Part shown: in pieces, positions 12,760-57,720 of the stretch
Position numbering within the stretch: position 1 is the stretch's first letter
Layout of the letters: every line of letters starts with the position of its first letter
Source: Streptomyces puniciscabiei
GTDB lineage: Bacteria; Actinomycetota; Actinomycetes; Streptomycetales; Streptomycetaceae
Assembly: GCF_006715785.1 (NCBI RefSeq)
Contig: NZ_VFNX01000001.1
Location: 5,684,001-5,748,000 of the forward strand
DNA: 64,000 bases
Reading direction: 5' to 3'
Position numbers and translations under genes: made by a program
The notes under the pieces: generated by a model
Databases searched by the model: none
Told to the model about the DNA's origin: nothing
What the model saw: only the letters and a program-made list of their open reading frames with translations

Positions 12760-14301
12760 TCAGTAGGGGCGCCGGATGCGCCGGCGCCACCAGCCGACGG
12801 CGGTGCCGAGGAGCAGGATCCCGGCAGCGCCCGACGCCGCCGACGCGGCGATCAGCACGGTGTTGTCCGAGCCGCCGGCGGAGGACCCGGCCGGTTGCAG
12901 GGCGTCACCCAGCTGGCTGCGCACGTCCGTGCCCGCGGTCGTGCCCTTGGCGAGCGGGCCGCGCGAGCCGGAGGTGGGCTCGGCGACGTACGGGAAGTAC
13001 TTCTCGAAGCCCTTGTCGTTCTTGTCCACCGCGTCGCCCAAGTCGTTCTTCGAGCCGACCAGTTCGCCCTCGACGACCTGCAACGCCTCGTCGATCACGT
13101 CATCGGTGAGCCGGCGCCCGTTCGGGAAGCCCGCGTTGTCGCCATCGAGCACGCCGAGACGCTTGGGGTGCATGGCCGGCTTGACGGAGGTGTTCAGGCG
13201 CAGTTCCTCCGAAGCGCGCACGTTCGGGGGCTGGTTGAGGCCCTTGACGCCCTTCAGGAAGACGTCGACCAGGTCGTTGCGGGGCTCGCTGGGGGCCTTG
13301 ATCTTGTAGATCGACTCGATGAGCTTCGGGAGCTCGGGGTTGGTGACGTTCTTCAGGAACTGGGCGTCGTACGCGGGCTGGGAGGCGTTGAACCTGTCCT
13401 TGTCCTTCTGCGGGTTGACGACCTCGTTGACCAGCGGGTTGCCCAGGCGCGAGACCTGGGTGTAGTACCCCTGCGCGTTGCGGCGCTGGGTGGTGGACCA
13501 GATGCCGACGATCGGCTGCCCGGCCGACTCGCGGATCAGGTCGTTGGGCACCTGCAGGGCGATGGTGTTGACGTTGTAGCCCTTGAGGGTGTCCCGGCCG
13601 ACCTCGCTGAGGTTGCCGCCGTAGAGCAGGTCGAAGACGCGCAGGTCCGCGAAGAACGGGTCGTCCGCCTGTCCGGCGAAGGTCGCGGCACCCCCCGGCG
13701 TCTTGTAGACGGCCTGCGCGCGCAGCTTGCCGTAGTCCGGCATGGACGCCTTGCCGACGTCCGAGGGCGCCACCGGCACGTTGTCCGCGAGCCGCGTCCT
13801 CGACATCACGTGGTCGTTCTTGAGCCGGAGCAGATCGATGTCGTACGTCTGCGTGATGTTGAGGTCGGGGTCGTCGAGGCTGGTGACCGGGCCGGTGTTG
13901 TAGAGGAACGTGTTCCCGTTCTTCGTATGCGTCTTGAAGGTGTAGCGGAAGACCATGTCGTCCCGCGCGTCACCGTTGCTGTCGATGTGCAGGTCGTACT
14001 GCGCGTCGTCGGCGAACGTGTAGAAGTTCGGCCCGCCCGCGGGCTCCTCGAACGGGATCCAGTTCGCCACGATCGTCGTGGTGTCGGGCTTGTCCGGGCT
14101 GACGAACGCGTACAGGTCGGTGTTGTCGTACTGCGGGGTCCCCGAGATCAGCGGGGCCTCCCGGTGGGAGGAGGCGGAGGCCGCCCCCGGTGCCAGCGCG
14201 GCGGCGCCGGCGGCGGTGAGCCCTCCGGCGGCCAGCGCGCCGCAGATGAGCGTGACCACACCGGTGCGTCCCGTCCCGCTCCTGGAGAAGAGAGGTGTCA
14301 T
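12760..14301 (-). CDS. DUF4331 secreted protein with C-terminal membrane anchor
   Basis: A 513-residue exported protein. The signal peptide is at 1-41, ending in the ASASSHREAPLIS segment. SSHREAPLI and DNTDLYAFVSP are hallmarks of DUF4331, and PFEEPAGGPNFYTF follows. The C-terminus has a single transmembrane helix (IAASAASGAAGILLLGTAVG) and a basic WWRRRIRRPY tail, so the mature domain should face outward on the membrane. Biochemical function of DUF4331 is not established to my knowledge. The gene heads the minus-strand TPR and NicO genes and is divergent from the SigK/RskA pair with a candidate ECF promoter 40 bases upstream. Confidence 0.88.
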   Translation of the reverse strand: MTPLFSRSGTGRTGVVTLICGALAAGGLTAAGAAALAPGAASASSHREAPLISGTPQYDNTDLYAFVSPDKPDTTTIVANWIPFEEPAGGPNFYTFADDAQYDLHIDSNGDARDDMVFRYTFKTHTKNGNTFLYNTGPVTSLDDPDLNITQTYDIDLLRLKNDHVMSRTRLADNVPVAPSDVGKASMPDYGKLRAQAVYKTPGGAATFAGQADDPFFADLRVFDLLYGGNLSEVGRDTLKGYNVNTIALQVPNDLIRESAGQPIVGIWSTTQRRNAQGYYTQVSRLGNPLVNEVVNPQKDKDRFNASQPAYDAQFLKNVTNPELPKLIESIYKIKAPSEPRNDLVDVFLKGVKGLNQPPNVRASEELRLNTSVKPAMHPKRLGVLDGDNAGFPNGRRLTDDVIDEALQVVEGELVGSKNDLGDAVDKNDKGFEKYFPYVAEPTSGSRGPLAKGTTAGTDVRSQLGDALQPAGSSAGGSDNTVLIAASAASGAAGILLLGTAVGWWRRRIRRPY

Positions 14302-24896: not shown

Positions 24897-25514
24897 ATGA
24901 AGCCCGTGCCCCACGCGACATCGCTCCGCCGCGCGCCCGTCCAGCGGCGCAGCGCCGAACGCCTGACCAGGATCCTCGACGCCTGCGCCGAACTCCTCGA
25001 CGAGGTCGGCTACGACGACCTGAGCACCCGCGCCGTCGCCCTGCGCGCCGGCGTGCCCATCGGCTCCGTCTACCGGTTCTTCGGCAACAAGCGGCAGATG
25101 GCCGACGCCCTCGCCCAGCGCAATCTGGAGCGGTACACCGAGCGCGTCACCGAGCGGCTGAGGAAGGCGGACAAGGGCGACTGGCGGGCCGCGATGGACG
25201 CGGTCCTGGACGAGTACCTGGCCATGAAGCGCACCGCACCCGGCTTCTCCCTGGTCGACTTCGGCAACCAGATACCCGTCGGCGCCCGGCACGCCGAGCC
25301 CAACACGCGCGTCGCCGACCGCCTCACCGACCTGCTCTCCGGCTACCTCGGCCGGACCCCCGACGAGGACCTGCGCCGGGTCTTCCTGGTCGCCGTGGAG
25401 AGCGCGGACACCCTCGTCCAGCTGGCCTTCCGGACGGACCCGCACGGCGACGAGGCGATCATCACCGAGACCCGGGAGCTGCTGCGCGCGTATCTGGGGC
25501 GCGTGCTCGACTGA
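24897..25514 (+). CDS. TetR family transcriptional regulator
   Basis: A 205-residue regulator. The N-terminal HTH is RLTRILDACAELLDEVGYDDLSTR with VPIGSVYRFFGNKRQMADAL as recognition region. The C-terminal domain resembles TetR_C_17-like families, with DEYLAMKRTAPGF and GNQIP. GGAGAGG precedes ATG 24897. The only palindrome nearby (25542-25559) lies between this gene and the molybdopterin oxidoreductase, so that enzyme gene is the most likely target. Ligand not predictable. Confidence 0.87.
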   Translation: MKPVPHATSLRRAPVQRRSAERLTRILDACAELLDEVGYDDLSTRAVALRAGVPIGSVYRFFGNKRQMADALAQRNLERYTERVTERLRKADKGDWRAAMDAVLDEYLAMKRTAPGFSLVDFGNQIPVGARHAEPNTRVADRLTDLLSGYLGRTPDEDLRRVFLVAVESADTLVQLAFRTDPHGDEAIITETRELLRAYLGRVLD

Positions 25515-25541: not shown

Positions 25542-25559
25542 GCATACCGGTCGGTATGC
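25542..25559. promoter_or_regulatory. Perfect 18-bp TetR-type palindrome
   Basis: GCATACCG-GT-CGGTATGC, perfect 8-base arms around two bases, lies 28 bases after the TetR stop and 57 bases before the oxidoreductase start. Its half-site TACCG/CGGTA equals that of the 57.3-kb operator but with the arms 4 bases closer. Confidence 0.7.
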
Positions 25560-25615: not shown

Positions 25616-27847
25616 GTGTCCCGCACCGCCCTGCGAATCTGCCCCCTGTGCGAGGCCACCTGCGGGCTGACCCTCACCATCGAGGGCACCCGAGTCACCG
25701 GCGCCCGCGGTGACCGCGAGGACGTCTTCAGCAAGGGCTTCATCTGCCCCAAGGGCGCGTCCTTCGGGGCCGTCGACTCCGACCCCGACCGGCTGCGCAC
25801 CCCGCTCGTGCGCCGGGACGGCGAACTGCGCGAGGCCACCTGGGAGGAGGCCTTCGACGCGGTCGCCGCCGGTCTGCGCCCGGTCCTGGAGGGGCACGGC
25901 CCGAACGCCGTGGGCGTGGTCCTCGGCAACCCCAACGTGCACACCGTGGCCGGCGCCCTCTACCCGCCGGTCCTGCTCGCCGGCCTCGGCACCCGCAGCG
26001 TGTTCACCGCCTCCACGGTCGACCAGATGCCCAAGCACGTCTCCAGCGGGCTGCTCTTCGGCGACGCCAACGCCATCCCCGTACCGGACCTGGACCACAC
26101 CGACCACCTGCTGCTCATCGGCGCCAACCCGCTGGAGTCCAACGGCAGTCTGTGCACCGCCCCCGACTTCCCCGGCAGGCTCAAGGCGCTCAAGGCGCGC
26201 GGCGGCCGGCTGACCGTGGTGGACCCGCGCCGCACCCGCACCGCGAAGCTCGCCGACCGGCACCTGGCCATCCGCCCCGGCGCCGACGCCCTGCTGCTCG
26301 CGGCGATGGCGCACACCCTCTTCGCGGAGGACCTGGCCGACCTCGCCGACCTCGCCCCGCACGTCCAGGGTCTCGCCGAACTCCGGGAGGCGATGAGCGA
26401 CTTCACTCCCGAAGCCGTGGCCGAGGCCTGCGACATCGACGCGGAGACCATCCGTACCCTTGCCCGTGAACTCGCCGCCGCCCCCACCGCCGCCGTCTAC
26501 GCCCGCATCGGCAGCTGCACCGTCCCGCACGGCACCCTGGCCAGCTGGCTGGTGGACGTCCTCAACATCCTCACCGGCAACCTGGACCGCCCCGGCGGCG
26601 CCCTCTTCCCGCAGGCCGCCACCGACAGGACGCCCCGCCCGGCCGGACCCGGGCGCGGCTTCGCCCTCGGCCGCTGGCGCTCGCGGGTGCGCCGACTCCC
26701 CGAGGCCAAGGGGGAACTGCCGCTCTCCGCGCTCGCCGAGGAGATCGACACCCCCACCGGCGAGGGCGAGCCGGTCCGCGCACTGATCGTGGTGGCCGCC
26801 AACCCCGTGCTGTCCGCGCCCGACGGCGACCGCCTCGACAAGGCCCTGGACTCGCTGGACTTCATGGTCAGCGTCGACCCGTACCTGAACGAGACCTCCC
26901 GGCACGCCCACGTCGTCCTGCCCCCGCCCCCGCCCTCGCAGAGCCCGCACCACGACTTCGCCTTCAACACCCTCGCCGTGCGCAACCAGGTCCGCTACAC
27001 CCGCCCCGCGGTCCCGCTGGAGCCAGGCCGCATGGCGGAGAGCGAGATCCTCGCCCGGCTGATCCTGGCGGCCACCGGCATGCACGGCGCCGACCCGGGC
27101 GCCGTCGATGCGATGGTCATCGACCAGACCCTCGGCAAGGCCGTGACGGAGGCGCATTCGCCGGTGTACGGCCGCGACCCGAAGGAGCTCACCGGGCAGC
27201 TCACCGGCGACACCGGCCCCGAGCGGCGGCTGGACATGATGCTGCGCCTCGGCCCGTACGGCGACGGCTTCGGCGTACGGCCCGACGGGCTGAGCCTGGC
27301 CAGGCTGCTCGCCCACCCGCACGGCATCGACCTCGGCCCGCTGCGCCCCCGCCTGCCCCAGCCGCTGAAGACCCGCAGCGGCAAGGTCGAGCTGCTGCCC
27401 GAGCCGATCGCCGCCGACCTGCCCCGCTTGCGTGAGGCCCTGCGGGAGCGGCCGGAAGGGCTCGTCCTCGTCGGCCGCCGCCACCTTCGCTCCAACAACA
27501 GCTGGATGCACAACGTGCCCGCTCTGACCGGCGGTTCCAACCGCTGCACCCTGCACATCCACCCCGAGGACGCGGCCCGGCTCGGCGTCCGGGACGGTGC
27601 GGACGTACGGGTGAAGGGCGCCGGGGGAGAGGTGGTGGCGCCGGCCGAGGTCACCGACGCCGTACGGCCTGGGGTGGTGAGCCTGCCGCACGGCTGGGGC
27701 CACGACCGTCCCGGCACCCGCCTCGGCCACGCCGCGACCGCGCCCGGAGTCAACGTCAACCAGCTCCTCGACGGCAGCCTGCTGGACCCGCTCTCGGGCA
27801 ACGCTGTCTTGAACGGGATCCCCGTCCACCTCACCGCAAGCCTGTGA
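25616..27847 (+). CDS. Molybdopterin-dependent oxidoreductase with N-terminal [4Fe-4S] site
   Basis: A 743-residue member of the DMSO reductase/formate dehydrogenase superfamily. C9-x2-C12-x3-C16-x27-C44 binds the iron-sulfur cluster. The bis-MGD folds include LLIGANPLESNGS and VVAANPVLSAPDGD, and the C-terminal dinucleotide-binding barrel contains RRHLRSNNSWMHNVP and VSLPHGWGHD. GTG 25616 has GGGAGGA upstream. No partner electron-transfer subunit, membrane anchor or Tat signal is visible, so it is probably a soluble cytoplasmic enzyme. Substrate unknown. It is likely controlled by the TetR gene before it. Confidence 0.88.
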   Translation: MSRTALRICPLCEATCGLTLTIEGTRVTGARGDREDVFSKGFICPKGASFGAVDSDPDRLRTPLVRRDGELREATWEEAFDAVAAGLRPVLEGHGPNAVGVVLGNPNVHTVAGALYPPVLLAGLGTRSVFTASTVDQMPKHVSSGLLFGDANAIPVPDLDHTDHLLLIGANPLESNGSLCTAPDFPGRLKALKARGGRLTVVDPRRTRTAKLADRHLAIRPGADALLLAAMAHTLFAEDLADLADLAPHVQGLAELREAMSDFTPEAVAEACDIDAETIRTLARELAAAPTAAVYARIGSCTVPHGTLASWLVDVLNILTGNLDRPGGALFPQAATDRTPRPAGPGRGFALGRWRSRVRRLPEAKGELPLSALAEEIDTPTGEGEPVRALIVVAANPVLSAPDGDRLDKALDSLDFMVSVDPYLNETSRHAHVVLPPPPPSQSPHHDFAFNTLAVRNQVRYTRPAVPLEPGRMAESEILARLILAATGMHGADPGAVDAMVIDQTLGKAVTEAHSPVYGRDPKELTGQLTGDTGPERRLDMMLRLGPYGDGFGVRPDGLSLARLLAHPHGIDLGPLRPRLPQPLKTRSGKVELLPEPIAADLPRLREALRERPEGLVLVGRRHLRSNNSWMHNVPALTGGSNRCTLHIHPEDAARLGVRDGADVRVKGAGGEVVAPAEVTDAVRPGVVSLPHGWGHDRPGTRLGHAATAPGVNVNQLLDGSLLDPLSGNAVLNGIPVHLTASL

Positions 27848-50850: not shown

Positions 50851-50870
50851 CATACCGACCGGTTAGTCTG
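50851..50870. promoter_or_regulatory. Imperfect TetR-type operator upstream of SDR/acyl-CoA synthetase operon
   Basis: CATACCGACCGGTTAGTCTG lies 50 bases upstream of the SDR start and 35 from the NamZ-like start. The left half CATACCGACCGGT corresponds to the operator at 57294-57311, and five of seven core pairs are palindromic. Confidence 0.6.
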
Positions 50871-50919
50871 AGGCGTCAGAGCCGACGCGCGCCGCGCGAA
50901 GTCGTGTCGAGGGAGACCG

Positions 50920-51693
50920 ATGGTGGAAGCCGTGCAGGATGCGGGAGTGGTCGTCACCGGGGCCGGCGGAGGGATCGGGGCCGCGCTGGCCCGGCGGTTC
51001 GCCGCCGAGGGAGCCCGGGTCGTCGTCAACGACCTGGACGGCGACAAGGCCAAGGCGGTGGCCGAGGAGATCGGCGGGATCGCCGTGCCGGGTGACGCCT
51101 CCGCCGTCGTCGCCGACGCCCGTGACGCGCTCGGCGGCACCGTCGACGTCTACTGCGCGAACGCCGGTGTCGCCTTCGAGGACGGCGGCGCGGGCGGGCC
51201 GCTCGACGAGAGGTCCTGGGCCCTCGCCTGGGACGTCAATGTGATGGCGCACGTCCGCGCCGCCCACGCGCTCCTGCCGGACTGGCTGGAGCGGGGCGCC
51301 GGGCGGTTCGTCTCCACCGTGTCGGCCGCCGGGCTGCTCACCATGATCGGCGCGCCCTCCTACAGCGTCACCAAGCACGGCGCCTACGCCTTCGCCGAGT
51401 GGCTGTCGCTGACCTACCGCCACCGGGGCCTGAAGGTGCACGCGATCTGTCCGCAGGGCGTGCGCACCGACATGCTGGCCGCGACCGGCAGCGCCGGGGA
51501 CCTGGTGCTGCAGCCGACCGCGATCGAACCGGAGGCCGTTGCCGACGCCCTGTTCCGGGGTATCGCGGAGGACCGTTTCCTGGTCCTGCCGCACCCCGAG
51601 GTGGCCGAGTACTACCAGGCGCGGGCCACCGACCCGGATCGCTGGCTGAGCGGCATGAACCACATCCAGCGCAAGTGGGAGGGGGCCCGGTGA
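50920..51693 (+). CDS. Short-chain dehydrogenase/reductase
   Basis: A 257-residue SDR. TGAGGGIG is the dinucleotide-binding loop, NDLDGDK the cofactor selectivity region (Asp, NAD-preferring), CANAG the stabilising turn, and YSVTK the catalytic Tyr and Lys. STVSAAG provides the Ser. It would interconvert a keto and hydroxy group. It heads an operon with an acyl-CoA synthetase (GTGA overlap) and a TetR. Context suggests a substrate in hydroxy- or keto-acyl degradation. Confidence 0.92.
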   Translation: MVEAVQDAGVVVTGAGGGIGAALARRFAAEGARVVVNDLDGDKAKAVAEEIGGIAVPGDASAVVADARDALGGTVDVYCANAGVAFEDGGAGGPLDERSWALAWDVNVMAHVRAAHALLPDWLERGAGRFVSTVSAAGLLTMIGAPSYSVTKHGAYAFAEWLSLTYRHRGLKVHAICPQGVRTDMLAATGSAGDLVLQPTAIEPEAVADALFRGIAEDRFLVLPHPEVAEYYQARATDPDRWLSGMNHIQRKWEGAR

Positions 51694-53357
51694 GCGCCTC
51701 CCCGTACGCGGCGCGCCCCTGGCTGGCCCTGCTCGACGACGCCCAGCGCGGCCCGATCGACCCCGCCGACTCGCTGGTGCACGCCCTGCGGGCGGCTGTG
51801 GCCGAGGCGCCCGAGCGCACCTTCCTCGCCTACTTCGACGCGCGGCTGAGCTACCGCGAGGTCGACGAGCTGAGCGACTCCGTCGCCGCCCACCTCGCCG
51901 CGCGCGGCCTGGAACGCGGTGACCGGCTTGCGGTGCTGCTGCAGAACTCCCCGCACTTCGTGCTCGCCGTCCTCGGCGCCTGGAAGGCCGGCGCGACCGT
52001 CGTCCCGGTCAACCCGATGTACAAGTCCGCCGAGATGGAGCACATCCTGCGGGACGCCGAGGTGGCCGCACTGGTCTGTTCCGAGCGGGCCTGGGAGTCG
52101 TACCTGCGGCAGACGGCGGCCGGCTCGCCGGTGCGGATCGTGCTCACCGCATCCGAGTTGGACTTCCAGACCCGCGACGACGCGCGCGTGCTCGGGTTCG
52201 AGCGGCTGCCCCAGGCGCCGGACACCGACGACCTCGTGGCCGTCGCCCGGCAGAGCGGCAGGGCGCCCGAGGGCCGCGACCCGCGCCCGGACGACATCGC
52301 GCTGATCAGCTACACCTCCGGCACCAGCGGCACCCCCAAGGGCGCCACCAACACGCACGGCAACATCATGCACAACGCCGAGCGGCAGCGGACCGGGCTC
52401 GCACTGCCGCAGGCGCCGGTCTACTACGCGCTCGCGCCGCTGTTCCACATCACCGGCATGGTCTGCCAGTTCGGGGCCTGCCTGAACAGCGCCGGCACGC
52501 TGGTGCTCGCCTACCGCTTCGAGCCCGGACTGGTCCTGGAAGCCTTCGCCGAGCACCAACCGCACTACACGGTCGGCCCGTCCACCGCCTACATGGCGCT
52601 GGCCGCCCACCCGGACGCCACCCGCGAGCACTTCGCCTCCTTCGTGAACCTCTCCTCCGGCGGCGCGCCCGTGCCCCCCGCGCTGGTGGAGAGGTTCCGC
52701 GAGCGCTTCGGGCCGTACATCCGCGTCGGCTACGGCCTCACCGAGTGCTCCGGCCCGTGCGCCGCCGTCCCGCCCGGCCTGGAGGCGCCCGTGGACCCCG
52801 TCTCCGGCACGCTGTCGGTGGGCGTGCCCGGGGCCGACACGCTCGTGCGGATCGTGGACGAGCAGGGCGAGGAGGTGCCCTTCGGGGAGCAGGGCGAGAT
52901 CGTCGTCCGCGGGCCCCAGGTGATCCCCGGCTACTGGCGGCGCCCGGACGCCACCGCCGAGGCCTTCCCGGACGGCGAGCTGCGCACCGGCGACATCGGC
53001 TTCATGGACCCGCAGGGCTGGCTCTACGTCGTCGACCGCAAGAAGGACATGATCAACGCGTCCGGCTTCAAGGTGTGGCCGCGCGAGGTCGAGGACGTGC
53101 TGTACACCCACCCGGCGGTGCGCGAGGCGGCCGTCGTCGGCGTCCCCGACGGCTACCGTGGCGAGACCGTCAAGGCGTACATCAGCCTGCGTCCGGGCGC
53201 CGGGACGGACCCGGATGAACTCGCGGTGTACTGCAAGGAGAGACTGGCCGCCTACAAATACCCGCGGCAGGTGGAGATCCTGCCCGACCTGCCCAAGACG
53301 GCAAGTGGGAAGATCCTCCGGCGGGAACTGCGTTCCCGAGCGCAGGACATTCGGTAA
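51690..53357 (+). CDS. Acyl-CoA synthetase (AMP-forming)
   Basis: A 555-residue ANL-superfamily ligase. YTSGTSGTPKGA is the P-loop, GYGLTECSG the A5 motif, GELRTGDIGFMD the A7 motif, VDRKKDMINASGFKVWPRE the hinge/A8 motif and PKTASGKILRREL the A10 catalytic Lys. GTG 51690 overlaps the SDR stop. It activates a carboxylic acid to its CoA thioester through an acyl-adenylate. A medium- or long-chain acid, or a hydroxy- or keto-acid, is possible; the substrate cannot be fixed. Confidence 0.94.
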   Translation: MSASPYAARPWLALLDDAQRGPIDPADSLVHALRAAVAEAPERTFLAYFDARLSYREVDELSDSVAAHLAARGLERGDRLAVLLQNSPHFVLAVLGAWKAGATVVPVNPMYKSAEMEHILRDAEVAALVCSERAWESYLRQTAAGSPVRIVLTASELDFQTRDDARVLGFERLPQAPDTDDLVAVARQSGRAPEGRDPRPDDIALISYTSGTSGTPKGATNTHGNIMHNAERQRTGLALPQAPVYYALAPLFHITGMVCQFGACLNSAGTLVLAYRFEPGLVLEAFAEHQPHYTVGPSTAYMALAAHPDATREHFASFVNLSSGGAPVPPALVERFRERFGPYIRVGYGLTECSGPCAAVPPGLEAPVDPVSGTLSVGVPGADTLVRIVDEQGEEVPFGEQGEIVVRGPQVIPGYWRRPDATAEAFPDGELRTGDIGFMDPQGWLYVVDRKKDMINASGFKVWPREVEDVLYTHPAVREAAVVGVPDGYRGETVKAYISLRPGAGTDPDELAVYCKERLAAYKYPRQVEILPDLPKTASGKILRRELRSRAQDIR

Positions 53358-53374
53358 GCATCACGGAAAGGCAG

Positions 53375-53977
53375 GTGGCGGCAGTGCCCAGGACGACGGA
53401 CGGAGACGGGACGCCCGTTCCGCAGCGGCTGCTGGCCGCCGCCACCCGGCTCTTCGCCGAGCAGGGATACGACCGCACCTCCGTGCAGGAGATCGTGGAG
53501 GCGGCCGGGGTCACCAAGGGAGCGCTGTACCACTACTTCGGCTCCAAGGACGACCTCCTGCACGAGGTGTACGCGCGCGTGCTGCGCATCCAGCAGGAAC
53601 GGCTCGACCACTTCGCCCGCATGGACGCGCCGGTGGAGGAACGGCTCAGAGCCGCCGCGGCGGACGTGGTCGTCACCACGATCGACAACCTCGACGACGC
53701 GATGATCTTCTTCCGGTCCATGCACCACCTCAGCCCGGAGAAGAACAAGCAGGTCCGCGCCGAGCGCCGGCGCTACCACGAACAGTTCCGCGCGCTGATC
53801 GAGGAGGGCCAGCAGGCCGGCGTCTTCTCCACGGCGACCCCGGCCGACCTGGTCGTGGACTACCACTTCGGCTCCGTCCACCACCTGTCCACCTGGTACC
53901 GCCCCGACGGGCCCCTCACCCCGCAGCAGGTCGCCGACCACCTCGCCGACCTGCTGCTGCGGGCGCTGCGTCCGTGA
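53375..53977 (+). CDS. TetR family regulator of the acyl-CoA operons
   Basis: A 200-residue regulator. HTH: QRLLAAATRLFAEQGYDRTSVQE with EAAGVTKGALYHYFGSKDDLLHEV. The C-terminal part, FFRSMHHLSPEKNKQVRAERRRYHEQFRAL, resembles the FadR/PsrA-like TetR_C_17/KstR2 group that senses acyl-CoA. GTG 53375 is 17 bases after the synthetase. Candidate binder of the CATACCGACCGGT sites upstream of this operon and of the kinase/ACAD operon. Its last 62 bases overlap the 3' end of the opposing LysR gene. Confidence 0.86.
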   Translation: MAAVPRTTDGDGTPVPQRLLAAATRLFAEQGYDRTSVQEIVEAAGVTKGALYHYFGSKDDLLHEVYARVLRIQQERLDHFARMDAPVEERLRAAAADVVVTTIDNLDDAMIFFRSMHHLSPEKNKQVRAERRRYHEQFRALIEEGQQAGVFSTATPADLVVDYHFGSVHHLSTWYRPDGPLTPQQVADHLADLLLRALRP

Positions 53978-54836
53978 GGTGACGGACGAGGGCCGCGGCA
54001 GCCGGGTTCCGGGGCTGCGGGCCGCGACCCGCGAGAACGACCGTACGGCCGGGCTCCGGCTGCCGTATGCGCACGCACGGCAGCCCGGCCCGCTCGCCGA
54101 TGGCCCGGGGCACGAACGCCACCCCGATCCCGGCCCGGACGAGGTCCACCAGCAGCCCGATCTGGGTGACGTCACAGGTGATACGGCGGTCCAGGCCGCA
54201 GTGGGCCGCGAGGCGCCGTACGGCCGTCTCCAGGCCGGTTCCCGCACGGAAGTCGACGAAGGGCTCGTCGGCGAGGTCCCTGATGAGCGTGCGGCCCGCC
54301 TCGGCCAGCGGATGTCCCGGCGCGGTGATCAGCACCAGCTCCTCGTGCCAGGTGGCGTGCGCGTGCAGACCCTCGGGCAGGTCGCGCGCCTCCGGGGCGA
54401 CGAACGCCAGGTCCAGCTCGCCGGCTCTCAGCGCCTCGGTCAGCTCGGCGACGGTCGCGTCCCGCACGGAGACCTGGATGCCGGGGAAATCCCGGTGGAA
54501 GCCGGCGAGTTCGGCGGGCAGGTCCACGCAGGTCAGGGTCTGGATCGTACCGATGGACACGCGGCCGACGGCCAGTCCCGCCACGGCCGCGACCGCCTCC
54601 CGGGCCGCTTCGGCGCCCGCGAGCAGCGCGCGGGCCTGGGGCAGCAGGGCCCGGCCGGCCTCGGTGAGCACCACCCGGCGGCCCGCACGGTCGAACAGGT
54701 CGGCGCCCAGCTCCCGTTCCAGGTTCCGGACGGACGTGCTGAGTGCGGACTGCACGATGAGCTCGGCGCGTGCGGCGGCGGTGAAGCTGCCCTCGTTCAC
54801 CACCGCCATGAAGTGGCGCAGCTGACGCATCTCCAT
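53916..54836 (-). CDS. LysR family transcriptional regulator
   Basis: A 306-residue regulator. The N-terminal winged helix is MRQLRHFMAVVNEGSFTAAA with QSALSTSVRNLERELGADLF. The type-2 periplasmic-binding-like effector domain begins near residue 90 (VGRVSIGTIQTL) and includes DLAFVAPE and GLLVDLVRAGIGVAFVP. Low-complexity Ala/Gly/Arg tail. It overlaps the TetR gene tail-to-tail by 62 bases. A T-N11-A dyad (54838-54854) lies 2 bases upstream of its start, so it is probably autoregulated and may act on the divergent side. No conventional divergent gene exists, only a tiny ORF. Confidence 0.87.
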   Translation of the reverse strand: MEMRQLRHFMAVVNEGSFTAAARAELIVQSALSTSVRNLERELGADLFDRAGRRVVLTEAGRALLPQARALLAGAEAAREAVAAVAGLAVGRVSIGTIQTLTCVDLPAELAGFHRDFPGIQVSVRDATVAELTEALRAGELDLAFVAPEARDLPEGLHAHATWHEELVLITAPGHPLAEAGRTLIRDLADEPFVDFRAGTGLETAVRRLAAHCGLDRRITCDVTQIGLLVDLVRAGIGVAFVPRAIGERAGLPCVRIRQPEPGRTVVLAGRGPQPRNPAAAALVRHLTDAAPAAAGRRGGRRPAAG

Positions 54837-54837
54837 C

Positions 54838-54854
54838 CATCTATTCTAGAGATG
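54838..54854. promoter_or_regulatory. LysR-type T-N11-A dyad
   Basis: CATCT-ATTCTAG-AGATG, with T54840 and A54852 eleven bases apart, right before the LysR start codon. Dyad, spacing and position are those of a LysR autoregulatory box. Confidence 0.6.
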
Positions 54855-54911
54855 CGGACCAGCGAAACCATCTGTTGGACCGGTGGGCGGCCTGCGGGCC
54901 ACGCTGGACGC

Positions 54912-55001
54912 ATGACTCGCAGACCGTATCTCCTGCACCGGTTCCTGGCGTTCCTCCGCACCCTCGCCCGCGAGGACCACCATTACTCAGGCGGCTACTA
55001 G
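54912..55001 (+). CDS. Possible 29-residue peptide divergent from LysR
   Basis: ATG 54912 opens a 29-codon frame, stopping at TAG 54999-55001, beginning MTRRPYLLHRFLAFLRTL and ending HHYSGGY. It has an amphipathic hydrophobic/basic helix and an aromatic tail. It lies where a LysR-regulated gene normally starts, 8 bases before the end of the opposing ACAD gene. I see no clear ribosome-binding site. It may be a real short peptide, a leader remnant or chance. Confidence 0.3.
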   Translation: MTRRPYLLHRFLAFLRTLAREDHHYSGGY

Positions 55002-55008
55002 AGGTAGC

Positions 55009-56223
55009 TCACAGGTACTTCTTCAGCTCCCGCCGCGCCAGCGACCGCTGGTGCACCTCGTCCGGGCCGTCGGCCAGCATCAGGGTGCGGGCGCTCGCGT
55101 ACAGCTCGGCCAGCGGGAAGTCCTGGCTCACCCCGCCCGCGCCGTGCAGCTGGATCGCGCGGTCCAGGATGCCGGCCACCGCGCGCGGCGTGGCAATCTT
55201 GATGGCCTGGATCTCGGTGTGGGCGCCCTTGTTGCCGACGGTGTCCATCAGCCAGGCCGTCTTCAGCACCAGCAGCCGCAGCTGCTCCACCGTCACCCGC
55301 GCGTCGGCGATCCAGTTCTGGACCACTCCCTGCTGGGCCAGCGCCTTGCCGAACGCCGAACGGGAGACGGCCCGCCGGCACATCAGCTCGATCGCCCGCT
55401 CGGCCATGCCGATCAGCCGCATGCAGTGGTGGATCCGGCCGGGGCCGAGCCGGGCCTGGGCGATGGCGAAGCCGCCGCCCTCCTCGCCGATGAGGTTGGT
55501 GACCGGCACGCGCGCGTGGTCGAAGACGACCTCCGCATGGCCGCCGTGCGAGTGGTCCTCGTAACCGAAGACCTGCATGGCGCGCTTGACGGTCACGCCG
55601 GGGGTGTCGCGCGGCACCAGGACCATGGACTGCTGGCGCCGGATGTCGGGGCCGTCCGGGTCCGTCTTGCCCATCACGATGAAGATCTTGCAGTCCGGGT
55701 TCATCGCGCCGGAGATGTACCACTTGCGGCCGGTGATGACGTACTCGTCGCCGTCGCGCTCGATGTGCGTGGTGATGTTGGTGGCGTCGGAGGAGGCCAC
55801 CTCCGGCTCGGTCATCGCGAAGGCCGAGCGGATCTCACCGGCCAGCAGCGGCTCCAGCCACTGCTTCTTCTGCCGCTCGTCGCCGAACTGCGCCAGCACC
55901 TCCATGTTCCCGGTGTCGGGCGCGGCGCAGTTGGTCGCGGTGGGCGCCAGATGCGGGGAGCGGCCGGTGATCTCGGCGAGCGGCGCGTACTGGAGGTTGG
56001 TGAGTCCCGCGCCGTACTCGCCGTCGGGCAGGAACAGGTTCCACAGACCCTGCCTGCGGGCCTCGGCCTTCAGTTCCCCGACCACGGCCGGGGTGTCCCA
56101 CGGGGAGGCGAGCGCGGCCCGCTGCTCCTCGGCGACCGCCTCGGCCGGGTAGACGTACTCCTCCATGAAGGCGAGCAGCTTGGCGCGCAGTTCCTCGGTG
56201 CGCGCGTCGAACGCGAAGTCCAT
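55009..56223 (-). CDS. ACAD10/11-like acyl-CoA dehydrogenase
   Basis: A 404-residue flavoenzyme. AFAMTEPEVASSDATNI and ITGRKWYISGAM are the acyl-CoA dehydrogenase loops, and RSAFGKALAQQGVVQ the FAD segment. The C-terminal active-site motif is ADGPDEVHQRS instead of the usual YEGTSQ, with Asp near the catalytic Glu position, the pattern of the ACAD10/ACAD11 group. Those animal enzymes, fused to a kinase domain, process 4-hydroxyacyl-CoAs after phosphorylation. Here the kinase is the adjacent upstream gene, 6 bases away. Confidence 0.9.
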   Translation of the reverse strand: MDFAFDARTEELRAKLLAFMEEYVYPAEAVAEEQRAALASPWDTPAVVGELKAEARRQGLWNLFLPDGEYGAGLTNLQYAPLAEITGRSPHLAPTATNCAAPDTGNMEVLAQFGDERQKKQWLEPLLAGEIRSAFAMTEPEVASSDATNITTHIERDGDEYVITGRKWYISGAMNPDCKIFIVMGKTDPDGPDIRRQQSMVLVPRDTPGVTVKRAMQVFGYEDHSHGGHAEVVFDHARVPVTNLIGEEGGGFAIAQARLGPGRIHHCMRLIGMAERAIELMCRRAVSRSAFGKALAQQGVVQNWIADARVTVEQLRLLVLKTAWLMDTVGNKGAHTEIQAIKIATPRAVAGILDRAIQLHGAGGVSQDFPLAELYASARTLMLADGPDEVHQRSLARRELKKYL

Positions 56224-56229
56224 GTCCGG

Positions 56230-57252
56230 TCAGCCTTCCTGAAGGGTCGTCAGTCCGTGGTCGATGAAGACGGGCACGAGGTCGCCGATCCGGTCGAAGC
56301 CGCGCCCGACCGTCTGGCCCAGCGTGTACCGGTAGTGGATGCCCTCCAGGATCACGGCCAGCTTGAACCAGGCGAACGCCGTGTACCAGGAGACGCCGGA
56401 GACGTCGCGCCCCGAGCGCTCGGCGTACCGCTCGATCAGCTCCCGCGGGGAAGGGTGCCCCGGGGCCTCGGCGGTGGTGGAGACGGGCGAGTCGGCCATC
56501 CCCAGCGGCCGGCTGTACATCACCAGCAGGCCCAGGTCGGTGAGCGGGTCGCCGAGCGTGGACATCTCCCAGTCGAGGATCGCCTTGATCTGGTCGTCGT
56601 CCCCGATGAGGACGTTGTCGAGCCGGTAGTCGCCGTGCACGACGGCCGGGGCGGGGGAGGCGGGCAGCTCTCTTCCCAGGGCCGCGTGCAGTTCGTCGAT
56701 GCCGGCCAGTTCGCGGTTGCGGGAGGCGTCCAGCTGCTTGCCCCAGCGGCGCAGCTGCCGGTCCAGGAAGCCCTCGGGGCGGCCGAAGTCCTCGAGGCCC
56801 ACCGCGGCCGGGTCCACCGCGTGCAGGTCGACCAGCGTGTCCACCAGGGACAGCACCGCGTTCCGGGTGCGCTCGGGGCCGAGCGGGGCGAGCTGCTGGG
56901 CGGTGCGGTAGGGGGTGCCCTCGACGAACTCCATGACGTAGAACGGCGCCCCGAGAACCTTCTCGTCCTCGCACAGCAGCACCGGGCGCGGGACCGGCAC
57001 CCGGGTCGGGTGCAGGGCGCTGATCACGCGGTGCTCGCGCTTCATGTCGTGCGCGGTGGCCAGGACGTGGCCGAGCGGGGGCCGGCGTACGACCCACCGG
57101 GAGGTGCCGTCGGAGAGCGCGTAGGTGAGGTTCGACCGGCCGCCCTCGATCAGCCGGCCGGTGAGGGGGCCGGTCACCAGACCGGGGCGCTCGCGGTCGA
57201 GGTGGGCGCGCAGCCGGTCCAGGTCGAGTCCGGGCGGGTGGTCGGCGCTCAT
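56230..57252 (-). CDS. APH-family phosphotransferase (ACAD10/11 N-domain or LvaA-like)
   Basis: A 340-residue kinase. VHGDYRLDNVLI is the catalytic loop with the base Asp, and ILDWEMSTLGDPLTDL the metal-binding loop. GGRSNLTYALSDG is the nucleotide-binding hairpin. It is not an antibiotic kinase by pairing: the partner gene 6 bases downstream encodes an ACAD10/11-like dehydrogenase, and this domain order is fused in animals. Expected reaction: phosphorylation of the 4-hydroxyl of a hydroxyacyl-CoA. ATG 57252 is 41 bases downstream of a TetR-type operator. Confidence 0.9.
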   Translation of the reverse strand: MSADHPPGLDLDRLRAHLDRERPGLVTGPLTGRLIEGGRSNLTYALSDGTSRWVVRRPPLGHVLATAHDMKREHRVISALHPTRVPVPRPVLLCEDEKVLGAPFYVMEFVEGTPYRTAQQLAPLGPERTRNAVLSLVDTLVDLHAVDPAAVGLEDFGRPEGFLDRQLRRWGKQLDASRNRELAGIDELHAALGRELPASPAPAVVHGDYRLDNVLIGDDDQIKAILDWEMSTLGDPLTDLGLLVMYSRPLGMADSPVSTTAEAPGHPSPRELIERYAERSGRDVSGVSWYTAFAWFKLAVILEGIHYRYTLGQTVGRGFDRIGDLVPVFIDHGLTTLQEG

Positions 57253-57293
57253 GCATCACTCCTACGAACGGATGAACAGGACCCGACCCATGA

Positions 57294-57311
57294 TGCCGAC
57301 CGGTCGGTATG
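57294..57311. promoter_or_regulatory. TetR-type operator upstream of kinase/ACAD operon
   Basis: TGCCGACCGGTCGGTATG with a 12-base perfect palindrome CCGACCGGTCGG at its centre, 41 bases upstream of the kinase start codon. Outer arms ATGCCG/CGGTAT carry one mismatch. Resembles the site at 50851. Confidence 0.75.
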
Positions 57312-57420: not shown

Positions 57421-57720
57421 TCAGTGGTCGTCCCAGTGGCCCTCGTGCTCGGCGTGCCGGTGGCCGCCGTGCAGATAGTCCACGTGATCGCCGTGCGGCA
57501 CCTGCGCGTGCCCGCACTCGTCGTAGTGCACGTGCTCGTGGCCCTCGTGGACGGTGTGCCCGGCCGGCTCGCACTCGTCCCAGTGGCCCTCGTGCTCGCG
57601 GTGCAGATGCCCGTCGTGCGCGTAGTCCAGGTGGTCGCCGTGCGGCACGGCGCAGTGCCCGCAGCCCGGACCGTGGCTGTGCGTGCGGTGTTCGGTGTGT
57701 TCCTGGTGAACGGTGGTCAT
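57421..57720 (-). CDS. Small His-rich duplicated metal-binding protein
   Basis: A 99-residue protein with about 32 histidines. Two copies of a unit of about 30 residues are visible: GCGHCAVPHGDHLDYAHDGH and ECGHAQVPHGDHVDYLHGGH, each followed by HxEHEGHWD. Four Cys lie in GPGCGHCAVP and DEC contexts. The pattern is that of zinc- or nickel-binding storage or buffering proteins; no signal peptide or membrane helix, so it is cytoplasmic. A promoter lies in the 60-base gap to the plus-strand oxidoreductase. No Zur or Nur box was recognised there. Confidence 0.8.
   Translation of the reverse strand: MTTVHQEHTEHRTHSHGPGCGHCAVPHGDHLDYAHDGHLHREHEGHWDECEPAGHTVHEGHEHVHYDECGHAQVPHGDHVDYLHGGHRHAEHEGHWDDH

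Follow-up and report, generated by a model that had tools for sequence, protein, structure and literature searches.

Two operons and their shared operator

The stretch of DNA analysed here, hereafter the window, comprises 64,000 nucleotides of Streptomyces puniciscabiei (C1:5684001-5748000 of a 9.15 Mb genome) and carries two operons, on opposite strands, with one palindrome before each. Consecutive plus-strand genes encode a short-chain dehydrogenase/reductase (SDR), an acyl-CoA ligase, whose gene overlaps the SDR stop codon by 4 bp, and a TetR protein resembling PfmR of Thermus thermophilus; on the minus strand, the gene for a kinase of the aminoglycoside phosphotransferase (APH) type comes first and that for an acyl-CoA dehydrogenase (ACAD) of the ACAD10/11 type follows 6 bp downstream (Table 1). 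These five genes, together with a site near the start of each operon, had been named in an earlier note on this DNA; gene calls and domain assignments confirm all five genes, and the sites proved real, each containing an exact 13-mer that forms part of a conserved 20-bp palindrome. The note's gene list omitted a LysR-type regulator gene, which is seen in one of 33 other same-genus loci (L068) and is probably a later insertion outside the unit.

Gene content, active-site residues, operator conservation and co-location in the sequences examined, considered together with the kinase and ACAD reactions and the PfmR binding to near-identical sites that others have described for homologues, make it likely that the locus is a unit, repressed by TetR, for the breakdown of 4-hydroxy and probably also 4-keto carboxylic acids, following a route like that of the Lva enzymes and of ACAD10/11 under a PfmR-like repressor. 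From this evidence we infer which reactions take place in S. puniciscabiei, what the SDR does, and what the inducer and natural substrate would be. Specifically, the ligase would make the CoA ester of the acid, the SDR would interconvert 4-keto- and 4-hydroxyacyl-CoA, the kinase would phosphorylate the 4-hydroxyl, and the dehydrogenase would remove the phosphate via transient FAD reduction, giving a 2-enoyl-CoA that could enter β-oxidation. The PfmR-like TetR would sit on the palindrome before both operons, one of which holds its own gene, until displaced by an inducer; the likeliest inducer is the substrate itself or the CoA ester derived from it. The chemistry of 4-hydroxy acids is known from mammals and Pseudomonas, and the Streptomyces version and its control seem to be undescribed: a literature search, with most subscription journals outside its coverage, found no paper on this locus in Streptomyces.

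Table 1. Genes and predicted operators of the locus, in window coordinates.
Feature	Position	Strand	Details
SDR reductase, proposed 4-keto/4-hydroxyacyl-CoA oxidoreductase	50920-51693	+	257 aa; Pfam adh_short; TGxxxGxG and YxxxK present
Acyl-CoA ligase	51690-53357	+	555 aa; AMP-binding domains
TetR repressor, PfmR-like	53375-53977	+	200 aa; TetR_N and TetR_C_24
LysR-type regulator	53916-54836	-	Between the two operons
ACAD10/11-type dehydrogenase	55009-56223	-	404 aa; R258, H266-C-M-R269, D385
APH-type kinase, proposed 4-hydroxyacyl-CoA kinase	56230-57252	-	340 aa; Pfam APH; R165, D208, N213
Operator 1, CATACCGACCGGTTAGTCTG	50851-50870	+	49 bp before SDR start codon
Operator 2, GATGCCGACCGGTCGGTATG (plus-strand letters)	57292-57311	-	39 bp before kinase start codon

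The 13-mer, CATACCGACCGGT, occurs exactly at 50851-50863 (plus strand) and 57299-57311 (minus strand); a third exact copy, at 25546-25558, likewise falls within the window, and the remainder of the 9.15 Mb genome has none. When up to three mismatches are allowed, the count within the window is barely above chance (32 versus a mean of 23, with 3 of 100 shuffles reaching 32), and the argument is therefore built upon the palindrome and its conservation. With the same tolerance, the 18-bp core of the palindrome is found at seven places in the genome versus one for a reversed control, and two of the seven are these promoters. A survey of one promoter per Streptomyces genome, the window included, found the palindrome (at most four mismatches, within 300 bp upstream) in 39/39 SDR promoters and 40/40 kinase promoters; information content within it is 1.92 (SDR) and 1.77 (kinase) bits per base, and 0.54/0.23 and 0.78/0.38 in the flanks. 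For comparison, when 4000 stretches of 350 bp were drawn at random from the named loci, 97 carried such a site, true sites included. Additionally, a degenerate pattern has 68 exact matches in 37 same-genus genomes, 64 at these two operons and 4 elsewhere by hand tally; as the pattern was drawn from the two window sites, its low background is the informative part, and the SDR-side matches of three genomes (G008, G017, G028) were assigned from sequence alone, their genes unread.

The best match of the TetR among structures in the PDB is 3vpr (E 2.5e-25), with 3dcf close behind (1.9e-23). The former, PfmR, is encoded on pTT27 of T. thermophilus HB8 by a TetR gene at 13171-13746, and the DNA-binding regions of the window TetR and PfmR are similar. 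For PfmR, a consensus, TACCGACCGNTNGGTN, is quoted from earlier work, and dissociation constants (KD) of 0.3-7.4 nM are reported for sites including CTTACCGACCGGTTGG (PMC7022988). Each window operator fits 15 of the 16 consensus positions, with 14 of 16 bases matching the TTHA0750 site, and both are predicted to be PfmR-type sites. Should this be borne out, repressor and operator would make up a native pair for responding to 4-hydroxy acids or lactones.

Several further sites were considered as possible members of a regulon. The copy of the 13-mer near 25.5 kb was dropped as an unproven third site. It belongs to a different palindrome, of 16 bp (CATACCGGTCGGTATG, at 25543-25558), with CATACCG half-sites 2 bp apart rather than 6, which is flanked by a TetR-like gene (24897-25514) and, from ~25617, a gene resembling those for molybdopterin oxidoreductases, both named by eye; a relative of this site lies between like genes in G033 (L124), and similar sites occur 18-25 kb off the locus in G020, G006 and G025. 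The other places in the genome with up to three mismatches (C1:24665, C1:3657130, C1:3862590, C5:26699 and C5:26855) were likewise set aside, none being beside clearly fitting genes. The last two form a pair of operator-like sites, 26699-26716 and 26855-26872 (L114), 156 bp apart, near a minus-strand DUF485-like and symporter-like pair, both named by eye, and a plus-strand pair of zinc-dependent alcohol dehydrogenase and SDR genes; comparable site pairs occur in L125 and L118. In three Streptomyces genomes (L115, L116 and L117, of G013, G011 and G009), an LLM-type oxidoreductase gene, so named by eye, has an operator with 2-3 mismatches ~10-35 bp upstream of its called start and is a possible extra regulon member there. 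Adjoining the kinase promoter, window positions 57421-57720 encode a very histidine-rich protein of 99 aa that has no Pfam or NCBIfam match and is found at a comparable position in many same-genus loci.

Conservation and rearrangement of the locus

A search of 61 genomes found the kinase in 58; 37 of the 61 are of the same genus, and 36 of those carry it, the source genome being counted in both totals. Of the 35 other carriers in the genus, all but G017 and G028 were examined with wide flanks, and the kinase-side operator (at most five mismatches) is present in each of these 33 loci. At 30 of them the SDR-side operator is found as well; of the remaining three, G024 and G008 end at a contig edge and have their SDR-side site elsewhere (L128 in G024), and the third is G012, in which kinase, ACAD and TetR lie at 7.10 Mb, and SDR and ligase at 8.887 Mb, 1.78 Mb away. 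The distant SDR-ligase operon of G012 retains the operator, 42 bp before the SDR match. Likewise, the kinase operon is inverted in L205 with its operator retained, and G018 has no SDR or ligase at the locus, an operator standing immediately before TetR; elsewhere in that genome, SDR and ligase give only short partial blastn matches among the matches listed. The natural REARRANGEMENTS seen in G012, L205 and G018 argue, at the level of sequence, that the site works in trans and has not simply been inherited along with its neighbours.

Rearrangements of this kind bear upon the possibility that the two operons share a repressor and serve different substrates, SDR and ligase acting on one acid, and kinase and ACAD on another. 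Their separate transcription in Streptomyces, the 1.78 Mb between them in G012, and the loss of SDR and ligase with retention of kinase and ACAD in L081 are consistent with such a division. We nonetheless consider it improbable, since SDR, kinase and ACAD genes are contiguous in eleven loci (L169, L172, L181, L182, L193-L195, L225, L228, L231 and L277). In L182, for example, an orthologous TetR and an operator precede six consecutive genes of one strand, for thiolase, a second SDR, the SDR orthologue (61%), kinase, ACAD and ligase; in L169, L172, L193, L194 and L195, operators are found both at TetR and upstream of the SDR genes. Overall, SDR orthologues adjoining kinase and ACAD in other actinobacteria are 56-62% identical.

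The distribution of the unit was followed from the regulator as well as from the kinase. Within the class, 66 of 296 genomes have an orthologue of the TetR with an E value no higher than 1e-45. Of 70 listed places in addition to that of the window, 40 were taken, namely 33 from the 44 outside the genus and 7 from the 26 inside it; the G035 locus was added to these. Among the 33 outside the genus, 11 have both kinase and ACAD, and 7 of these 11 also an SDR orthologue at 58-63%. The scan from the kinase covered the best 80 of 578 relatives in named genomes and is for that reason no census; in addition, several loci are cut by contig ends. Its 39 Streptomycetaceae loci include 38 with ACAD, 36 with the kinase-side operator, 30 with TetR, 29 with SDR and 23 with a ligase orthologue; its 41 loci from other families include 29 with ACAD and 19 with SDR. 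Within those 41 the operator tracks the TetR, being present in 8 of the 11 loci that have this TetR versus 1 of the 30 that do not.

SDR, kinase and ACAD share one locus in Micromonospora, Nocardioides, Cryobacterium, Gordonia, Tsukamurella, Actinophytocola, Nocardiopsis, Pseudonocardia and Amycolatopsis, among others. In several of these genera the stretch contains only a distant TetR (27-34%) or none, and the enzyme set is therefore wider than this regulator. A Tsukamurella plasmid operon, as annotated, also includes thiolase, MaoC, FabG and a ligase, with which a complete turn of β-oxidation could be made. A different setting is found on a plasmid of Streptomyces sp. NBC_00388 (L209), where the kinase and ACAD pair has ketosynthase, AfsA-related, HAD and CoA-transferase genes as its neighbours; this company suggests that a biosynthetic cluster employs the chemistry as well.

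Enzyme identities and possible substrates

The best PDB matches of the ACAD are ACAD11 chains (8v3u, 8v3v and 2wbi), followed by 4hr3 ('putative acyl-CoA dehydrogenase'), and its identity to the ACAD domain of 8v3u is 56% (220/395 aligned). Both 8v3u and 8v3v were taken as mouse ACAD11 because their single differences fit two mutants in PMC12440821. According to the same source, R626, H634 and R637 of mouse ACAD11 bind the 4-phosphate, D753 is the catalytic base and H597 has a supporting role (PMC12440821). With the chain numbered one lower than in that paper, H597, R626, R631, H634, R637 and D753 map to identical residues in the window ACAD (H229, R258, R263, H266, R269 and D385; 6/6). The protein thus carries the marks of the ACAD10/11 family, namely the phosphate-pocket arginine (R258), the HCMR motif (H266, R269) and the aspartate base (D385).

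Similarly, the kinase and the kinase domain of ACAD11 share 36% of their residues (87/241 aligned residues counted), and D220 (catalytic), N225 and R176 (CoA side) of that domain, the roles of which are taken from PMC12440821, correspond to D208, N213 and R165 (3/3 identical). In the numbering used here, the position mapped to mouse R86 holds no arginine in the window kinase, and conservation of that residue is not claimed. Both proteins are accordingly expected, by homology, to have the activities proposed for them in S. puniciscabiei; if so, a function would be predicted for gene pairs that are annotated only as 'phosphotransferase family protein' and 'acyl-CoA dehydrogenase family protein'.

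A number of observations weigh against the proposed unit. The best PDB chain for the kinase, 9o56 (241 bits), is named only 'Aminoglycoside phosphotransferase'. In a pfmR mutant, the genes for ACAD (TTHB015) and phosphotransferase (TTHB014) are up with adjusted p near 0.02, and the other operon enzyme genes rise less, with adjusted p of 0.07-0.17, leaving TTHB014 and TTHB015 as the only two of them below 0.05 (PMC7022988). The interval from SDR to TetR yielded no ligase in 5 of the 33 same-genus loci (L057, L062, L066, L075 and L077), and the ligase is therefore not obligatory, a loss that fits the report of an lvaE mutant still growing on levulinate (PMC6692424). G035 keeps the TetR (80% at the DNA level; orthologue 82% at L167) with no kinase match, no operator match, and only short partial blastn matches for SDR, ligase and ACAD, a state that the proposed unit does not predict. 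Outside the genus, the 33 TetR loci include 5 with kinase only, 7 with ACAD only (~9 kb away in L186 and L190) and 10 with neither within the stretch; among the 41 kinase loci outside Streptomycetaceae, 11 have this TetR and 9 the kinase-side operator.

The bare name of 9o56 could also be taken as a sign of an ordinary fatty-acid β-oxidation island, with a normal ACAD and a kinase acting on something unrelated, as could the fact that SDR, ligase, ACAD and TetR are common fatty-acid genes and that PfmR is named for phenylacetic and fatty acid metabolism (PMC7022988). This we regard as very unlikely, since the ACAD combines the HCMR motif and aspartate base of ACAD10/11 and LvaC with a best PDB match to ACAD11, the kinase and ACAD genes are separated by only those 6 bp, and the chains that come after 9o56 among the kinase matches are 3dxp, deposited as 'putative acyl-CoA dehydrogenase', and ACAD11 (172-176 bits). 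Aminoglycoside resistance is likewise an unlikely function of the kinase, which scores 38.5 bits with the APH(3') model versus a cut-off of 205.

The earlier note had seen in these genes the four enzyme types of the lva pathway, split across two operons with a common TetR operator, and had proposed levulinate or hydroxy fatty acids as substrates. The four types are matched, with active sites of the ACAD10/11 type supported by sequence, and the shared operator and the link between the operons likewise gain support from the comparisons above; levulinate as the specific substrate does not. A strict levulinate (4-oxopentanoate) pathway as in Pseudomonas putida, a narrower case of the catabolic unit proposed here, would employ the same enzyme types as LvaA, LvaC, LvaD and LvaE (PMC6692424), and a 4-keto substrate would suit the presence of an SDR next to the kinase in other genomes. 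Set against it, the locus proteins scanned include no LvaR-type regulator and no LvaF/LvaG transporter, the regulators being TetR and LysR with no DUF485 protein or symporter; DUF6285, which we infer to be the LvaB family, is absent from 37/37 same-genus genomes and present in 1 of all 61 searched; the occurrence of the kinase in nearly all genomes of the genus (36/37) argues for a commoner substrate class; and a lactonase-like gene lies nearby in some loci outside Streptomycetaceae (5/41). The pathway in this strict form is thus unlikely: nothing points to levulinate in particular, and 4-hydroxy acids or γ-lactones fit at least as well. The missing lvaB homologue to which the note had also drawn attention is less telling than was thought, for no lvaB was found in the lva-type region analysed in Pseudomonas citronellolis LA18T either (PMC6692424).

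The case for lactones begins with a gene of the phosphotriesterase family, which, in the scan of the best 80 of 578 relatives, occurs close to the kinase in those 5 of 41 loci and in none of the 39 within Streptomycetaceae. It follows ACAD in Tsukamurella and in one of three Nocardioides loci, and lies between ligase and TetR in three of eight Amycolatopsis loci. The best PDB matches of its product are 4if2 and then 2vc5, both of which we take to be lactonases. In Rhodococcus erythropolis, a TetR-repressed lactonase and a ligase are needed for γ-caprolactone assimilation (PMC6476934), and 4-hydroxyhexanoate, the opened form of γ-caprolactone, is the acid used for ACAD10 (PMC11342911). The qsd operon of R. 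erythropolis resembles the group of ligase, lactonase-like gene and TetR in Amycolatopsis (L237) and differs from the window locus, which has no lactonase; the one phosphotriesterase-family match in the S. puniciscabiei genome is elsewhere and weaker (116.9 bits). The word 'phosphotransferase' does not occur in the main text of the qsd paper (PMC6476934).

These observations are a lead and not a result. Tentatively, and with the balance somewhat against it, PfmR-like TetRs may be dedicated regulators of 4-hydroxyacyl-CoA catabolism in Actinomycetota and Thermus, with γ-lactones as the natural substrates. A phosphotriesterase-like lactonase or other hydrolase would then open the lactone, the ligase would add CoA, and kinase and dehydrogenase would lead the product to β-oxidation. 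If true, the same enzymes could supply the later steps of γ-caprolactone assimilation by rhodococci, and the 'phenylacetic acid/fatty acid' regulon of Thermus would be re-read as a 4-hydroxy-acid regulon.

Comparison with the PfmR, Lva and ACAD10/11 systems

The gene order on pTT27 is TetR, ACAD, hydrolase, SDR, MaoC, PaaI, ligase, SDR, ACAD and phosphotransferase, in agreement with the order TTHB023-TTHB014 given for PfmR (PMC7022988). In print, this operon has been read as serving phenylacetic and fatty acid metabolism, from which PfmR takes its name (PMC7022988); the 4-hydroxy-acid reading offered here is our own and not that of the paper. Shared with the window are the closest solved TetR, a near-identical operator, an ACAD of the HCMR type, SDRs, a ligase and a phosphotransferase. 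The ACAD at the end of the Thermus operon, which contains HCMR, is 41% identical to the window ACAD. Among the differences, the TetR proteins are only ~33% identical and the kinases 26%, and the Thermus kinase gene is followed by genes for DUF6285 and a histidine phosphatase, unlike that of the window. Should the comparison hold, a biochemically characterised regulon would be tied to a specific chemistry.

The lva systems of P. putida and P. citronellolis LA18T resemble the locus in their enzyme types. An APH-type kinase is present in the role of LvaA, judged by type and catalytic residues and not by identity to LvaA; an LvaC-type ACAD is present with HCMR and the aspartate base; and an SDR and a ligase of the right type for LvaD and LvaE are present, judged by domain class. 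Unlike the lva systems, the Streptomyces locus, in Actinomycetota, has a PfmR-like TetR instead of LvaR, and because regulator and transporter differ it is not filed here as an lva operon. In LA18T the lva-type genes form two oppositely oriented clusters (PMC6692424), and the split arrangement is therefore not new in itself. P. putida requires the 12-kDa LvaB together with LvaA (PMC6692424). In vitro, a Burkholderia kinase and ACAD could each substitute for the matching domain of ACAD10; that pair is closer to ACAD10, and the main text of the report is without mention of LvaB (PMC11342911). We suggest that kinases of the ACAD10/11 kind may act by themselves, and that a small partner may accompany the more divergent LvaA and Thermus type.

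Mammalian ACAD10 and ACAD11, finally, contain the same types of kinase and ACAD domain, and the residues checked are conserved. In Streptomyces, unlike in mammals, kinase and ACAD are two separate proteins, as is the case for LvaA and LvaC, and their genes stand in regulated bacterial operons, accompanied by an SDR and a ligase. The locus could allow the human ACAD10/11 route to be modelled in a genetically tractable bacterium, perhaps with no requirement for LvaB.

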